Assembly (NCBI RefSeq): GCF_024199905.1
Contig: NZ_JANAFB010000010.1
Coordinates: forward strand, 1 to 64,000
Reading direction: 5' to 3'
Length of the DNA: 64,000 nt
Source of the DNA: Rothia santali
Lineage (GTDB): Bacteria; Actinomycetota; Actinomycetes; Actinomycetales; Micrococcaceae
Made by a program: the position numbers and the translations under genes. Of this stretch, positions 47 through 38,569 are shown piece by piece (position 1 is the stretch's first letter; every line of letters begins with the position of its first letter). The notes under the pieces were generated by a model. It was not told the DNA's origin. It was given only the letters and a program-made list of their open reading frames with translations, and did not search any database.

Positions 47-898
47 ATGCCCGCCCCCCCCCCGGCCACACCGCAGCGCCCCGCCCTGAACCGCGACACC
101 ACCGTGTGCATCTCCCTCGCGGGGCGCCCCAGCAACCACGGGACCTTCTTCCACAACCACCTGTACGAGCGGTACGGCCTGGACTTCCTCTACAAGTCCA
201 TGACCACCGACGACGTCGAGGGCGCGATCCGCGGCGTCCGCGCCCTGGGCATCCGCGGCTGCTCGGTCTCGATGCCGTTCAAGCAGGCGGTGATCCCCCT
301 GGTCGACGCCGTGGACCACTCGGCGGAGGTCATCGGCGCGGTCAACACCATCGTCAACGACGCCGGCCGGCTGACCGCCTACAACACCGACGTCGTCGCC
401 GTGGCCTCGCTGCTGCGCACCCACCGGGTCGACCCGGCGTCCTCGTTCGCGCTGCGCGGCTCGGGCGGGATGGCCCGGGCCGTCGCGGGCGCCCTGCACG
501 ACGCCGGGTTCGCCCGCGGCACCGTCGTCGCGCGCAACGAGGAGGACGGTCGCGAGCTGGCCCGCCGGTACGGCTACGAGTGGGTCCCCGACGCCGCGGG
601 CCTGCGCGCCGACCTGCTCGTCAACGTGACGCCCGTGGGCATGGAGGGCGGCCCCGAGCGCGAGGAGCTCGCCTTCCCCGAGGAGGCGATCGACGCCGCC
701 CGGACCGTGTTCGACGTCGTCGCCCTGCCGGTCGAGACGCCCCTGATCCTCCGCGCCCGCGCCGCGGGGAAGGAGACGATCACCGGCGCCGAGGTCGCGG
801 CCCTCCAGGCGGCCGAGCAGTTCGCCCTCTACACCGGCGTCCGGCCCTCCCCGGAGGAGGTCGACGACGCCGAGGCGGCCACCCGCCGGGGCGCCTGA
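47..898 (+). CDS. Shikimate dehydrogenase-like protein (SdhL/HI0607 type)
   Basis: NAD(P)-dependent oxidoreductase of the shikimate dehydrogenase superfamily, 283 aa. The N-terminal SLAGRPSN stretch (about residues 23-30), SMPFK (75-79, with the Lys that is catalytic in AroE), NTD (113-115) and the dinucleotide-binding GSGGMA (138-143) match the SdhL/HI0607 subgroup better than canonical AroE. From family knowledge such paralogues act poorly on shikimate, so the true substrate is uncertain. A GGAG stands shortly before the ATG. The gene converges on the rhomboid gene across a 295-bp gap holding DnaA boxes and a hairpin. Its left neighbours are outside the window. Family assignment is firm; the in vivo reaction is not. 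Confidence 0.85.
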   Translation: MPAPPPATPQRPALNRDTTVCISLAGRPSNHGTFFHNHLYERYGLDFLYKSMTTDDVEGAIRGVRALGIRGCSVSMPFKQAVIPLVDAVDHSAEVIGAVNTIVNDAGRLTAYNTDVVAVASLLRTHRVDPASSFALRGSGGMARAVAGALHDAGFARGTVVARNEEDGRELARRYGYEWVPDAAGLRADLLVNVTPVGMEGGPEREELAFPEEAIDAARTVFDVVALPVETPLILRARAAGKETITGAEVAALQAAEQFALYTGVRPSPEEVDDAEAATRRGA

Positions 899-955
899 AT
901 GACAAGAATCCCCCCAGCGCGCCGGGCGCCCGTGATCCCCACCCCGTGCACAGAG

Positions 956-1110
956 TTATCCACAGGTGTGGGCAACTCCGGGGGATAACTCGCCGGGAAT
1001 ACGCCGGCACGGCCGTCATTCCGGGGTTTTCGACTATCCACAGCCTTGTTAACAGGTGTGGAGTTACACTCCTGTAGTTATTAACACCTGTGGGTCCACC
1101 CTGTGGATAA
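956..1110. other. DnaA-box cluster outside oriC
   Basis: The gap between the SdhL-type gene and the rhomboid gene contains TTATCCACA at 956-964, CTATCCACA (one mismatch) at 1034-1042 and the same box reversed, TGTGGATAA, at 1102-1110. A weaker GGGGATAAC lies near 982-989. An inverted repeat ACAGGTGT/ACACCTGT (1052-1059, 1084-1091) and an AT-rich GTTATTAACA patch sit between the boxes. No reading frame here looks coding. The arrangement resembles a DnaA-titrating or reactivating locus (datA/DARS-like) or an origin fragment. Function is inferred only. Confidence 0.6.
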
Positions 1111-1112
1111 AG

Positions 1113-1162
1113 GGAGAGGGTCCAGGGATTCCTGTAATCACAAGAATCCCCGGACCCTCTCC
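1113..1162. terminator. Long hairpin between convergent genes
   Basis: An 11-bp outer arm (1113-1123 with 1152-1162) and a 7-bp inner arm GGGATTC/GAATCCC (1125-1131 with 1144-1150) are separated by one mismatch. The 12-base loop (1132-1143) reads CTGTAATCACAA, the motif also seen in oriC. It lies just after the end of the minus-strand rhomboid gene and downstream of the plus-strand SdhL-type gene, so it can serve both as a terminator. There is no U-tract. The motif in the loop may make it more than a terminator. Confidence 0.6.
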
Positions 1163-1193: not shown

Positions 1194-2024
1194 TCAGGTC
1201 CGCGCGGCGCCCCGGCGTCGTCCTCCGCGGCGGCCCCGGCGCCCCCGCGAGGTGAGCTCGAAGAGCCACGCGACCACGGCGCCCACCACCAGGCCGCCCA
1301 CGTGGGCCTGCCACGAGATCCCCGGCACCACGAACCCGAAGACGAGGTTCACGGCGATGAGGATGAGCAGCGCCCGGGTGTCGCCCCCGCGGAAGCGGGT
1401 CCAGGCGAAGAACGCGCCGAACAGCCCGAAGACGCCGCCGGAGGCGCCCACCACCAGCGTGTAGGGCGGCGTGAGCAGGTAGACCGCCGCCGAGCCGCCC
1501 ACGATGGACAGCAGGAACACCGCCAGGAACCGCCACCGCCCCATCCGCGGCTCGAGCGCCTGCCCGAAGAGGTACAGCGAGTACATGTTCAGCAGGATGT
1601 GGGCGATCCCCGAGTGGACGAATCCGCTGGTCAGCATGCGCCACGGCTCGGTAGCCGTCAGTCCCGGCATGTATGCGAGCTCGCGGATCACCAGCTGGTT
1701 CGGCACCAGGTACTGCAGGAGGAAGACGGCGAGGTTGATCGCGATCAGCGTCAGGGTCACCGGGGTCGCCCCGGCCCGCGGGAAGATCGAGCTCCTGCCG
1801 CGCACGACGCCGCCCCGCCGCTCGGCCTCCCGCCGCGCCTCCCGGGCGCAGTCGACGCACTGCACCCCGACCGGCGCCTGCACCTGGCACCGGGGGCAGA
1901 CCGGCCGATGGCAGCGGGTGCAGCTGACGTAGGCCACCGTGTCCGGGTGCCGGGGGCAGACCGGCCGCTGGGCGTCGTCGTGCTCGTCGGCGCGCTGCCC
2001 GTACCGCGGAGGTTCCTGGTCCAT
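1194..2024 (-). CDS. Rhomboid family intramembrane serine protease with N-terminal zinc-ribbon-like domain
   Basis: 276-aa polytopic membrane protease. Residues 23-59 hold four Cys/His pairs (C23/H26, C35/C38, C43/C46, C56/C59), a B-box-like zinc-binding region typical of actinobacterial rhomboids. The rhomboid core follows with H142 and N146 of the HxxxN oxyanion motif, GASGG with nucleophile Ser195, and His241 in the last catalytic helix. Six membrane segments are apparent from about residue 88 on. It cleaves substrates inside the membrane; its targets are unknown. It lies downstream of the cyclophilin gene on the same strand, as in many Micrococcales origins. The start ATG at 2024 places the Cys cluster in frame. 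Confidence 0.9.
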   Translation of the reverse strand: MDQEPPRYGQRADEHDDAQRPVCPRHPDTVAYVSCTRCHRPVCPRCQVQAPVGVQCVDCAREARREAERRGGVVRGRSSIFPRAGATPVTLTLIAINLAVFLLQYLVPNQLVIRELAYMPGLTATEPWRMLTSGFVHSGIAHILLNMYSLYLFGQALEPRMGRWRFLAVFLLSIVGGSAAVYLLTPPYTLVVGASGGVFGLFGAFFAWTRFRGGDTRALLILIAVNLVFGFVVPGISWQAHVGGLVVGAVVAWLFELTSRGRRGRRGGRRRGAART

Positions 2025-28554: not shown

Positions 28555-28860
28555 CTGTAATTACAGGTGTCCCGTCCTCCCGGGGCCGCGCAGCGGGCCT
28601 CAGGGACCCTGCCGGCAGGCTCGGCGGACGAGATGAATAGTTATTCGGAATGATCTCTTTAAAGGACAGGAGTGTTAATAACCCGTGTGGATACTGTGGA
28701 TAACCCACGTTTGCCCTGCCGGCGCGCACTTTGGCCTGTAGACAGATTGTGATTTAACGACGCCGCTTCGGTGGGCGGCGTGTGGAGCCGCGATCCGCTG
28801 ATTTCCTGTAATTCACAGATGACGTCGATTCGTCCACCGCGGACCCCTGGTTATCCCCGG
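28555..28860. other. oriC: oriC, dnaA-dnaN intergenic part
   Basis: The 610-bp gap 28469-29078 has two abutting reversed DnaA boxes, TGTGGATAC (28686-28694) and perfect TGTGGATAA (28695-28703), and a weak TTATCCCCG at 28851-28859. An AT-rich stretch at about 28632-28682 just before the boxes is the best unwinding-element candidate in this GC-rich DNA. CTGT-N-ACAG palindromes lie at 28555-28566 (CTGTAATTACAG), 28736-28745 and 28806-28818. Position between dnaA and dnaN fits a standard actinobacterial origin. The rest of the gap is GC-rich with no gene. Confidence 0.8.
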
Positions 28861-30882: not shown

Positions 30883-31062
30883 CTGTCCACATGGTTGTGC
30901 ACAGGATCGCCCCTTGTGGATAACTACGGGGGCACCCGTTCAGCTTAGGCCATGAACGGGGCGCTCTGCCCCTAGATCTCGCGGGTTCCTGTAATCACAG
31001 GACTGTAGTTCCCCGGCATCCCGGGGGTGCGGTCGGCATAAATGTCGTTAAAATTATCCACA
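30883..31062. other. oriC: oriC, dnaA-rpmH intergenic part
   Basis: The 654-bp divergent gap 30789-31442 contains perfect boxes TGTGGATAA (30915-30923) and TTATCCACA (31054-31062), and single-mismatch relatives of TTGTCCACA at 30883-30891 and 30895-30903. Between them a near-perfect palindrome, TTCCTGTAATCACAGGA, lies at 30986-31002. AT-rich TCGTTAAAATTATCC borders the 31054 box. Together with the dnaA-dnaN gap this forms a split origin. Boxes near the dnaA start may also mediate autoregulation. Confidence 0.75.
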
Positions 31063-35466: not shown

Positions 35467-36492
35467 ATGAGACGTGTTCTGGACGTCGGCCTGCCCCCAA
35501 ATCCCATTGATCAACCCGGGAAAGTTGTCCCGGATGCATGCACCCGTGTTTCACGTGAAACATTGGAACTGATGACCCCCGTGCTGGAGACGTCCTCCGG
35601 CATGGTCGAAACACCTGTGATGAGAGAGCTGATGAACGAGAAGAAGCGGTGGAAGAGGCTGGCCCAACAGAATGTGGCTGCTCCCGAGGAGACGCGCATC
35701 TTCACGATCAGCAATCAGAAGGGCGGCGTCGGCAAGACGAGCACGGCCGTGAACCTCGCGGCCGCGATGGCCGAGCGGGGGTTGGAGACGCTGGTCATCG
35801 ACATCGATCCCCAGGGGAACGCATCGACGGCCCTCAACATCGATCACGGCCTGGACGTACCGTCGACCTACGACATCCTCATCGAGGGGACGTCGATGGC
35901 GGAGATCGTCAAGGCGTGCCCCGATATCTCCCGTCTCTCATGCGTACCGGCGAACATCGACCTGGCCGGAGCGGAGATCGAGCTCGTGTCCCAGGTGGCT
36001 CGTGAGCAGCGCCTGAATCGGGCGCTCCAGGAGTACACGGAGTACCGAGAGCGCGAGGGGCTTCCCCGGCTCGACTACGTCTTCATCGACTGCCCTCCGT
36101 CCCTGGGCCTGCTGACCATCAACGCCTTCGTGGCGGCCAGGGAAGTGCTCATCCCCATCCAGAGCGAGTACTACGCTCTCGAGGGGCTGAGCCAGCTTCT
36201 GAACAACATCGAGATGGTCAAGAAGCACCTCAACTCAACTCTCCACGTGAGCACCATTCTGCTCACGATGTACGACGGACGGACCAATCTCGCCTCTCAG
36301 GTGGCGGACGAGGTACGTCAGCACTTCCCGGAGGAGGTGCTGGAAGCGCTCATTCCACGTTCGGTCCGCATCTCCGAGGCGCCCAGCTACCAGCAGACCG
36401 TGCTGAGCTACGACCCCCACTCAAGCGGTGCCCTGGCCTACCTGGAGGCGGCCGTGGAGATCGCACAGCGGAGCCGCACGCTCGCCTCCTGA
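35467..36492 (+). CDS. parA: Chromosome partitioning ATPase ParA (Soj)
   Basis: 341-aa Walker-type ATPase that binds nucleoid DNA and moves ParB-bound origins. The deviant Walker A is KGGVGKT at 85-91, followed by IDIDPQGNAST, and VFIDCPPSLGLLT marks Walker B. ATG 35467 overlaps the stop of a six-codon frame (ATG 35450, with GGAGAG) by ATGA. An alternative ATG at 35572 would leave the parS site at 35547-35562 upstream of the gene instead of inside it. The start is therefore uncertain, the identity is not. Confidence 0.95.
   Translation: MRRVLDVGLPPNPIDQPGKVVPDACTRVSRETLELMTPVLETSSGMVETPVMRELMNEKKRWKRLAQQNVAAPEETRIFTISNQKGGVGKTSTAVNLAAAMAERGLETLVIDIDPQGNASTALNIDHGLDVPSTYDILIEGTSMAEIVKACPDISRLSCVPANIDLAGAEIELVSQVAREQRLNRALQEYTEYREREGLPRLDYVFIDCPPSLGLLTINAFVAAREVLIPIQSEYYALEGLSQLLNNIEMVKKHLNSTLHVSTILLTMYDGRTNLASQVADEVRQHFPEEVLEALIPRSVRISEAPSYQQTVLSYDPHSSGALAYLEAAVEIAQRSRTLAS
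35548..35561. other. parS: parS site 1
   Basis: GTTTCACGTGAAAC, extended to a perfect 16-bp palindrome with flanking T and A. It lies in the 5' part of parA, encoding VSRET if the upstream start is used. Confidence 0.95.
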
Positions 36493-36658
36493 CTGAGGCC
36501 CCCGTAGGAGCCCGTGGGGGCGCTCCAGCGAGGACTCGAGACGTGCGAGGGGTCTTCATCAGCCGCGGCCGCAGACGTTCGTCTCCGAGGGGTGCGACGA
36601 GATCTGAGCCCCTCTCGCTACTGTGCGCGGAAGCGTGAAGTCGTCGATTTCTCGTCAT

Positions 36659-36672
36659 GTTTCACGTGAAAC
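36659..36672. other. parS: parS site 2 (parA-parB gap)
   Basis: Perfect 14-bp GTTTCACGTGAAAC in the 464-bp gap between parA and parB (36493-36956). The gap holds two parS sites, a TAGACT -10-like element at 36915-36920 for parB, and no gene. Confidence 0.95.
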
Positions 36673-36779
36673 GCGATGGAGGTCGGGTGGAGGCGGAGCG
36701 GTGGACGAGTGCTCGGGAAGTGTTCCGAGCACCGCATCGCATTCATCGTCACCAGTAGCAATGGGTCGACAATTGAGCC

Positions 36780-36793
36780 GTTTCACGTGAAAC
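36780..36793. other. parS: parS site 3 (parA-parB gap)
   Basis: Perfect GTTTCACGTGAAAC, flanked so that 20 bp (36777-36796) are palindromic. It lies 164 bp upstream of the parB start. Confidence 0.95.
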
Positions 36794-36956
36794 GGCCACT
36801 TGACTCTCCCTCCCAGGTGGGGGCGGGCATGCTTTCGGTCGCCTTGCACTTCGATGGCATTCTCCGGAGAAGCGTCACAACGTGCATGAGGCAGGTTCTT
36901 CTCGCCGCACCCACTAGACTGAAGACACGGATCGACTGTCTAGCGTAGGAGCAATT

Positions 36957-38513
36957 GTGGCGGAACGTCGTAGAGGACTGGGGCGTGGACTTGGTGCGCT
37001 CATTCCATCATCACCCGAGCTCGAGGAATCTCAGACTGCAGTGGCGGGTGGGACCGACAGCCTCTTCGACGCGGATGCTGGCACTGACGTTTCACGTGAA
37101 ACAGAGGAGACCCCAGCGGCCACCCCCTCGAAGCGTGGAAAGACGACATCGGCTAAGAGTTCGGGCTCACGGCGCACGCCTCAGACCTCGACCAAAGACG
37201 CCTCCGGTTCGCCCGCAGAGGGGAAGCGCGAACTCAACGACTCCTCCATTGACGCCACCGCGGCCAATGACCCAGCTGCCTCATCAAAGCAGAAAGCTAT
37301 CAAAGCAACCCCTAGAAACCGTCCTTCGTCGTCCAAGTCATCGAAATCGCGTGACGAAGTGACCAGCTCCACCTCAGCGTCCAAGAGCTCAGCAGCTGCG
37401 ACGAAGCGAGCGGATATGGGGGCCGCCCTGCGCAAGAGCGGGACAGGACGACGCCCCGTGGACTTCTTCTTCCAGCCGAGCGAACCGGCGAGCCCTGCGG
37501 ATGTCGAGGCCGTCGAAGCCGATTCCTCTTCAGCTTCCTCGATGCAGAGCGAACTTCCCGTATCCAGAGGAACGACTGCCTCAGCCGCGGATCCGGCGTC
37601 GACCACGTCGGCGTCCGTCGGCGGCGATGTTTCACGTGAAACGAGCGCAGATCAGTCGGTGTCTGACAACGGTTCCGAGAACCTCGTCTCGGTTCCCGGC
37701 GCGCACTTCGGCGAGATCGGGGTGCATGACATCCACCCTAACCGCAAGCAGCCGCGGCAGGACTTCGACGAGGACGAGATGGAGGAGCTGGTTCACTCCA
37801 TCCGCGAGATCGGGGTGCTTCAGCCGATCGTCGTTCGACGCAGCCGCGAAGAGGGGGATGCGCCCTACGAGCTCGTCATGGGCGAGCGACGCTGGCGGGC
37901 ATCCCAGCGGGCGGAGATCGCAACCATCCCCGCCATCGTCCGGGACACTCAGGACGTCGATCTGCTGCGCGATGCGCTGCTGGAGAACCTGCACCGCAGT
38001 CAGCTGAATCCGCTGGAGGAGGCCGCCGCATATCAGCAGCTACTCCACGAGTTCGGCACCACCCAGGAGGAACTCGCGCGGCGCATCGGTCGTTCGCGCC
38101 CGCAGATCAGCAACACCATCCGACTCCTGCGACTGCCCGCGCTGGTGCAGCGCCGGGTGGCTGCGGGCATTCTCTCCGCGGGACACGCTCGTGCGCTCCT
38201 GGTGCTCGAGGACCCGGCCGCCATCGAGCGCTTGGCGCAGCGCATCGTGGCGGAAGGCCTATCGGTGCGAGCGGTCGAAGAGATCGCGCAGGCTGGCGAG
38301 GGGGAGAAAAAGCCCAAGGAGCGTAAGGCAACCCCCTCCAATCGTCATCATGAGCGCCTCGACTACATTGCGGACGCGTTCGCCGACAAGCTGGACACCA
38401 GCGTCAAGATCAATCTCGGGGCCCGGAAGGGTAGGATGACGATCGAGTTCGCCTCGGTGGACGATCTGAACCGCATCATCTCCGTCCTCGACCCGAAGAT
38501 CGAGCGGGACTGA
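36957..38513 (+). CDS. parB: Chromosome partitioning protein ParB (Spo0J) with very long N-terminal linker
   Basis: 518-aa CTP-dependent DNA clamp; relatives are usually 300-400 aa. Residues 1-15 (MAERRRGLGRGLGAL) are the ParA-stimulating motif. Residues 16-245 are Ser/Thr/Ala/Lys-rich linker with a short conserved-looking PVDFFFQP (167-174). The CTP domain starts at about 246, with GERRWRA at 309-315. The helix-turn-helix (TQEELARRIGRSRPQISNTI) and the C-terminal dimer domain follow. Start is GTG 36957 with TAGGAG upstream. Two parS sites lie inside the linker coding region, each read as VSRET. Base composition is less GC-rich than neighbouring genes. Confidence 0.97.
   Translation: MAERRRGLGRGLGALIPSSPELEESQTAVAGGTDSLFDADAGTDVSRETEETPAATPSKRGKTTSAKSSGSRRTPQTSTKDASGSPAEGKRELNDSSIDATAANDPAASSKQKAIKATPRNRPSSSKSSKSRDEVTSSTSASKSSAAATKRADMGAALRKSGTGRRPVDFFFQPSEPASPADVEAVEADSSSASSMQSELPVSRGTTASAADPASTTSASVGGDVSRETSADQSVSDNGSENLVSVPGAHFGEIGVHDIHPNRKQPRQDFDEDEMEELVHSIREIGVLQPIVVRRSREEGDAPYELVMGERRWRASQRAEIATIPAIVRDTQDVDLLRDALLENLHRSQLNPLEEAAAYQQLLHEFGTTQEELARRIGRSRPQISNTIRLLRLPALVQRRVAAGILSAGHARALLVLEDPAAIERLAQRIVAEGLSVRAVEEIAQAGEGEKKPKERKATPSNRHHERLDYIADAFADKLDTSVKINLGARKGRMTIEFASVDDLNRIISVLDPKIERD
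37089..37102. other. parS: parS site 4 (inside parB)
   Basis: Perfect GTTTCACGTGAAAC within the parB linker, reading VSRET at residues 45-49. Confidence 0.95.
37629..37642. other. parS: parS site 5 (inside parB)
   Basis: Perfect GTTTCACGTGAAAC within the parB linker, reading VSRET at residues 225-229. Confidence 0.95.
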
Positions 38514-38529
38514 TCTCCCGGGACCACGA

Positions 38530-38569
38530 AAAGGCCCGCCCCGTTTCACGTGAAACGGGGCGGGCCTTT
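38530..38569. terminator. parS: Bidirectional terminator built around parS site 6
   Basis: A 40-bp perfect palindrome starts AAAGGCCCGCCCC and ends with its complement, with GTTTCACGTGAAAC (38543-38556) at the centre. It lies 17 bases past the parB stop and 27 bases before the end of the convergent trxA gene. A GC stem flanked by A and T runs gives intrinsic-terminator character on both strands, while the tip is a full ParB site. Confidence 0.9.

Follow-up and report, generated by a model that had tools for sequence, protein, structure and literature searches.

A conserved DnaA-box cluster beside the rhomboid gene near oriC of Rothia: a candidate DnaA control element

To our knowledge, the restraint of replication after initiation in actinobacteria is little understood. 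Smulczyk-Krawczyszyn reportedly described, in 2006, three DnaA-box clusters near oriC of S. coelicolor, the deletion of one of which is said to have raised initiation, and a 2012 study by Okumura is said to be the one behind the DnaA-box clusters near oriC of B. subtilis. According to the accessible parts of two reviews (PMC5742627, PMC4585315), DnaA-box clusters near oriC repress untimely initiation in B. subtilis and S. coelicolor, and near-origin clusters have been reported to restrain re-initiation in E. coli, S. coelicolor and B. subtilis.

The locus described here resembles the clusters of S. coelicolor and B. subtilis in that its DnaA boxes are grouped close to oriC, and in Rothia it differs from them by a motif, M, and by the lack of an adjacent crgA. 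E. coli datA is likewise a near-origin, non-coding box cluster whose boxes leave space between them for the site of a partner protein, but its essential boxes point in the same direction (accessible part of PMC5742627), whereas the strong boxes of Rothia face each other (26/30 loci).

DARS1 and DARS2 of E. coli share with the present element a three-box unit in which one box is inverted, with a tandem spacing of 12 bp there and 12–13 bp here. The total, however, is 26 bp and the head-to-head step 14 bp in E. coli, as against 22–24 bp and mostly 10–11 bp in the present element, which moreover lies close to oriC. We derived the shared core in E. coli K-12 as boxes at 0, 12, and 26 (++-) in the bioD-uvrB and rppH-mutH gaps, which we take to hold DARS1 and DARS2.

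The titles and abstract openings among the matches listed contained no description of the rhomboid-gap element, in a coverage that leaves out most subscription journals. Should the rhomboid/crgA gap be among the S. coelicolor clusters, the Streptomyces member is already known; what is new is then the conservation over many actinobacteria, the architecture and, in Rothia, the motif common to oriC.

The rhomboid gap and its DnaA boxes

The window, that is, the whole stretch of 64,000 nucleotides that was analyzed, is the start of one contig of a 3.3-Mb assembly in 84 contigs. The gap under study occupies 899–1193 (295 bp), lies approximately 28 kb from oriC, has a GC content of 61% as compared with 70.5% for the whole window, and is bordered by an AroE-like gene and a rhomboid gene, whose 3′ ends both point toward it. 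The former had been labeled ‘SdhL-type’ in the original prediction, a label that we have replaced, since the gene matches PF08501, the shikimate dehydrogenase substrate-binding domain, and is thus AroE-like. Because the genes converge in the window, as they do in 64 of 72 other loci, the gap there is not a promoter of either neighbor. The features of the gap and its genes are as follows.

47..898, + strand: shikimate dehydrogenase-type gene (AroE-like), convergent with the rhomboid gene (open-reading-frame list and Pfam)
897..906, - strand: TTGTCATTCA, a partial second copy of motif M that overlaps the stop codon of aroE at the far end (alignment)
944..952, + strand: weak box CCGTGCACA, which leads a ++- triad completed by the 956 and 967 boxes, at offsets 0, 12, and 23 (conserved column; geometry in relatives)
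956..964, + strand: strong outer DnaA box, a perfect TTATCCACA (motif scan; aligned in relatives)
967..975, - strand: weak box TTGCCCACA, head-to-head with the 956 box over a 2-bp gap (alignment, geometry)
1034..1042, + strand: one-mismatch DnaA box CTATCCACA (column kept in the window's clade)
1064..1077, no strand: palindrome TTACA-CTCC-TGTAG, which is conserved more widely than any other part of the element in the remaining families of the order
1078..1086, + strand: TTATTAACA, a one-mismatch TTNTNCACA site (geometry in relatives)
1089..1097, - strand: degenerate box GGACCCACA, second of a triad with the 1102 and 1078 boxes at offsets 0, 13, and 24 (alignment, geometry)
1102..1110, - strand: strong outer DnaA box, again a perfect TTATCCACA, 146 bp from the 956 box and facing it (motif scan)
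1113..1162, no strand: 18-bp two-part hairpin, possibly a bidirectional terminator (folding)
1132..1143, - strand: motif M in the hairpin loop, reading TTGTGATTACAG on this strand and common to oriC
1194..2024, - strand: rhomboid protease gene, the conserved neighbor (Pfam and relatives)

The two perfect boxes and the single-mismatch box that had been predicted were all recovered, the perfect pair spanning 155 bp. The degenerate position 1089..1097 reads TTACCCACA or TTATCCACA in many relatives. The window as a whole contained five perfect TTATNCACA as against 0.04 expected from shuffles, and the 3.3-Mb assembly contained 11 copies of TTATCCACA, whereas the pattern read backward occurred twice. 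The 11 copies were distributed as two in the gap, three at oriC, four in one cluster on contig C5, and two single ones, of which one is on C11 and the other directly upstream of dnaB on C34. At the genomic density, the Poisson probability of finding at least two perfect boxes in one given 295-bp gap was 4.8e-7, uncorrected for the number of gaps. Thus, the genome-wide scan that had been proposed as a check showed that box density is not equal elsewhere and that the gap, with two of the 11 perfect boxes, is enriched. The gap is thus a place other than oriC where DnaA boxes are clustered beyond the background level and, in Rothia, it is non-coding and close to oriC. In other Rothia, perfect boxes elsewhere are plentiful, with up to 61 per genome, so that the element accounts for a small share of all sites in those genomes.

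Conservation and architecture of the element

The rhomboid gene was found in 33 of 35 Rothia genomes, and the two genomes without it are 72% and 65% complete. The rhomboid proteins of the window and of R. halotolerans share 87% identity. Strict DnaA boxes were present 3′ of the rhomboid stop codon in all 30 Rothia loci fetched, the window included; in two of them (L043 and L044), a second rhomboid copy stands between the first one and the boxes. A facing pair of strict boxes, 128–146 bp apart, was seen in 26/30 loci, and the spacing was 145–146 bp in all eight loci of the window's clade, which comprises the eight genomes with a rhomboid identity of at least 66%. A profile built from 28 Rothia loci recovered the element in 30/30 and, in addition, in a genome outside the profile (G001) at 130 bits, and in two genomes whose loci were not fetched (G013 and G027) motif hits lay approximately 250–300 nt 3′ of the rhomboid genes. 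The gene on the far side is variable, with an aroE match in 8/30 Rothia loci. There was no crgA within 1,300 nt past the rhomboid gene in Rothia (0/30 loci), and the boxes were still beside the rhomboid gene. The GC content of the rhomboid locus is 58 to 71% in the window's clade versus 47 to 59% in other Rothia.

The distance between dnaA and the rhomboid gene was 27.1 kb in the window and 13.9–21.6 kb in 30/30 other Rothia, counted where both genes are on one contig (in two further genomes they are on separate contigs). The stretch from rhomboid to dnaA in the window (2024–29082) is thus longer than in the 30 other Rothia, suggesting that the window's genome has extra DNA between these two genes.

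Outside Rothia, we analyzed 72 actinobacterial loci, i.e. 80 named loci minus six from Rothia and two with fewer than 150 bases past the rhomboid gene (L084 and L112); these loci were picked by rhomboid similarity and are phylogenetically uneven. In 64/72, crgA (PF06781, Pfam-confirmed in three) faces the rhomboid gene within 1,300 nt. At least one strict TTNTNCACA was present in 57 of the 64 rhomboid/crgA gaps as compared with none inside the 64 crgA genes; four of the seven gaps that had no strict box are at most 24 nt long. TTATCCACA occurred within 500 nt in 47/72 loci, with 64 sites in 35,651 bp versus 16 in 800,212 bp elsewhere, so that perfect boxes were approximately 90 times denser in the 500-nt stretches than in the rest of the 72 loci. 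Reversed and scrambled box patterns gave zero and zero matches in the same 500-nt stretches.

A separate Streptomyces-type sample, taken from one genus of another order, showed a convergent crgA and boxes in the gap in 30 of its 30 best loci, and none inside crgA. Each of these gaps contained three to six strict-box matches, a few of which are one palindromic site counted on both strands. dnaA (dnaA/dnaN) lay approximately 18–21 kb from the gap in 3/3 Streptomyces-type genomes checked and approximately 20 kb away in another genome (G233), whereas in three others (G209, G231, and G264) neither side yielded a dnaA within 20 kb. Outside Rothia, dnaA was thus within approximately 22 kb in four of the seven genomes checked. 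The look at close relatives that the original prediction had called for accordingly found the boxes beside the rhomboid gene kept in all 30 Rothia loci and beyond the genus.

The boxes recur in a triad, in which two tandem boxes are 12–13 bp apart and a third, inverted box stands 22–24 bp from the first. This geometry was chosen as the commonest one in the same gaps that were later counted. The ++- triad was found in 26/72 gaps versus three matches in 786,102 bp elsewhere, and TACA-N4-TGTA beside a box in 35/72 gaps versus none in the other 772,501 bp; since both the palindrome and the triad spacing were first noticed in the gaps counted, the sole control is how often they occur in the remainder of the loci. 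The triad was also present in 23/30 Rothia loci and in 12/30 Streptomyces-type gaps. In the window's own copy there was no triad at the threshold passed by the 23 Rothia loci: its boxes keep the triad spacing and are too degenerate for that threshold.

The central palindrome was found in none of the 30 Streptomyces-type loci. By itself, AAYTACANNNNTGTAR had matches in 64 of 119 genomes of the order. Among 30 such loci fetched, 12 had a rhomboid homolog, one had dnaA, three others had a box within 250 bp, and 14 had none of these, indicating that the palindrome is not exclusive to the element. In one other family, AATTACA-N4-TGTAA occurs away from DnaA boxes with partly similar flanks (L203–L206), where it is probably the site of another regulator.

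Motif M, oriC, and the hairpin

The loop motif of the gap had been predicted to recur in both halves of the origin, and it was indeed located in each of them. The oriC features are as follows.

28555..28566, no strand: motif M in the dnaN-dnaA half of oriC, CTGTAATTACAG (motif scan)
28674..28703, - strand: oriC segment with two DnaA boxes, a short spacer, and TTATTAAC (motif scan)
30989..31000, - strand: motif M in the upstream half of oriC, CTGTAATCACAG, which reads CTGTGATTACAG on the - strand (motif scan)

Apart from M, the gap and oriC have in common TTATTAAC, found at the 1078..1086 site and at 28674–28681, and CTATCCACA-GCC-TTGTTAACA of the gap loosely resembles oriC 28674–28703. In approximately 23 Mb from the eight genomes of the window's clade, TGTGATTACA occurred 15 times, always at oriC or in the gap, and once when read backward. 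Eight of the 15 copies are in the element and seven upstream of dnaA in oriC, one of the latter being assigned across the ends of a circular contig. As TGTGATTACA was suggested by the window, only the other seven genomes, which are related, serve as a test.

In other Rothia, the palindrome TGTAATTACA was found at oriC in 20/22 loci, and twice in the dnaA-dnaN gap in 19/22, mostly 46–49 bp apart (range 37–139). It occurred in 28/35 Rothia genomes, with 3–12 copies in 24 of them and one copy in four, whereas the control gave 0–3. We examined its position in eight genomes with one main contig, the length of which was taken as that of the chromosome, and considered only copies more than 30 kb from dnaA. 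These 35 sites all lay within 41% of the half-chromosome, as compared with a different AT-rich palindrome, of which 7/11 sites lay beyond that limit (Fisher p 6e-6); with one genome per clade, 25 sites gave p 1.5e-10 for uniformity. Related genomes inherit common sites, and these p values are therefore optimistic. The TGTAATTACA sites of Rothia outside the window's clade (e.g. G014) are confined to an origin-centered part of the chromosome, both in long open frames and outside them. The same mixture was seen among 21 distal sites (20 stretches from five genomes), and, as judged from such placement, M would suit chromosome organizing better than a regulon.

Several other identities of M were rejected. 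As a regulon motif of the window's own genome, TGTAATT gave 19 sites (control 4), of which three are at oriC and the other 16 showed no clustering or common context. As a family-wide motif, YTGTAATTACAR was present in 7/9 Rothia and 9/140 other genomes versus 12/140 for the backward control; the nine non-Rothia genomes, among 149 genomes of the family, have one site each and belong to only four genera. M is not parS either, as GTTTCACGTGAAAC was absent from the gap even at two mismatches. Six perfect parS GTTTCACGTGAAAC are present within approximately 3 kb at 35548–38556 of the window.

The 18-bp two-part stem with its 12-base loop, as originally predicted, was confirmed in the window. It consists of 11 + 7 pairs (1113–1123 with 1152–1162 and 1125–1131 with 1144–1150) around the loop CTGTAATCACAA at 1132–1143. 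The fold had a z-score of -10.8 in the window and -10.0 in the nearest relative (a R. halotolerans-type genome), in which the arms have changed and remain complementary. The other 16 of the 18 Rothia loci folded gave z-scores of -2.8 or weaker. The motif pattern that guided the folding was absent from 12/30 Rothia loci, and several further loci were folded around an inner match. No clear run of T follows the hairpin on the + strand, and the other strand has CTTTAT only. Contrary to the expectation that the hairpin would be kept along with the boxes, it is not conserved as a unit, and with a strong fold in only 2/18 loci we rejected it as a functional unit; what recurs is the loop motif. Most plausibly, the hairpin is of local significance and may be a terminator, and it encloses the recurring motif by chance.

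The gap as a probable DnaA control element

As judged from sequence, the gap is best explained, with a probability of about 0.65, as a control element close to the origin that binds DnaA and belongs to the datA or DnaA-box-cluster type; it would probably limit re-initiation. We infer that DnaA would bind the two facing outer groups of boxes together with several weak boxes between them, and that the central TTACA-N4-TGTAA palindrome and, in Rothia, M would be sites of a putative partner protein that also binds oriC. The element would be copied soon after oriC has fired, doubling a DnaA sink or a site of DnaA inactivation; duplicated so soon after initiation, it would most likely delay the next one. 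M may bring the element and oriC together. Since near-origin clusters have been reported to restrain re-initiation, a brake acting by sequestration or inactivation of DnaA is favored, and the inferred sign of the effect is thus negative. The original prediction of a DnaA titration or reactivation locus stands as far as control of DnaA is concerned, for which the sequence gives good support; of titration and reactivation, a brake would fit the near-origin position better.

Reactivation would mean a DARS-like site, at which the boxes hold ADP-DnaA and promote its exchange to ATP-DnaA, favoring initiation. The topology of the triad, with two tandem boxes and a third inverted, matches the E. coli DARS core, and head-to-head contact is named as the prominent DARS feature in the accessible part of PMC5742627. 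We nevertheless regard this reading as unlikely, as the head-to-head step of 14 bp in E. coli compares with mostly 10–11 bp here, and a place next to oriC fits a brake better than late reactivation. It was also predicted that the gap could be a displaced piece of an older origin, in this case a spare oriC still able to unwind. The DnaA boxes, TTATTAAC, and M are common to the gap and oriC, and the most AT-rich 40 bp of the gap (37.5% GC, at 1045) are comparable to those of the two oriC halves (32.5% and 40%), which slightly raises the odds. However, TTATTAACA holds the place of the inverted box of the triad in relatives and so need not be an unwinding feature, and TTATTAAC, a possible DnaA-trio, has a box position as its place in relatives. 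A displaced origin is not favored, and we consider it quite improbable, because other families and Streptomyces-type genomes also have boxes at the rhomboid gap, with dnaA/dnaN approximately 18–21 kb off in the 3/3 Streptomyces-type genomes checked.

The gap could also be a transcription feature only, i.e. a bidirectional terminator of convergent genes, with the DnaA boxes as passengers or roadblocks. The convergence of the genes and the two strong folds with altered, matching stems speak for such a function, which is nonetheless very improbable as the whole explanation, given that the fold is weak in 16/18 Rothia loci, yet the boxes are present in 30/30. We give still less credence to M and the palindrome being sites of the response regulator MtrA. 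According to the accessible part of PMC5487470, oriC, dnaA, and dnaN of M. tuberculosis and S. venezuelae are targets of MtrA binding, but the published sites are, in the accessible parts of the sources, direct repeats of GTNAC or (A/G)TAACAAT (PMC3353115, PMC13189361, PMC6265350). A by-eye comparison with the published consensus showed M to be a palindrome with GTNAT, unlike the MtrA direct repeat, and M was rejected as an MtrA site.

Beyond the preferred reading of the gap as a DnaA control element, we tentatively propose that a Rothia DNA-binding protein might recognize YTGTAATTACAR (TGTGATTACA in the window's clade), marking oriC, the element, and an origin-centered domain reaching to approximately 40% of each arm, and tying the element to oriC, and that the rhomboid-gap element might be an ancient actinomycete DnaA control site. 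If this is true, the M protein would play in actinobacteria the role that IHF has at oriC and datA, or that of origin-domain organizers. Its motif, found in the window's clade only at oriC and in the element, makes such a partner protein findable by DNA-affinity capture. The fixed non-coding address of the element, 3′ of the rhomboid gene and opposite crgA in most loci examined, offers one deletion target that harmless model strains would make accessible.

DnaA boxes were also noted at two further places in the window's own genome. A second intergenic cluster, at approximately 75220–75860 of C5 (L012 5220–5860), has four perfect boxes and two triads and is flanked by genes for a hydroxyethylthiazole kinase and an aldehyde dehydrogenase (Pfam). 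Similarly composed multi-box clusters are present in two other Rothia (L125 6340–6850 and L126 4880–5390), beside which the C5 aldehyde dehydrogenase had no match. On C34 (L014 5620–5745), DnaA-like boxes, one of them perfect, are situated directly upstream of dnaB (PF00772), which encodes the replicative helicase.
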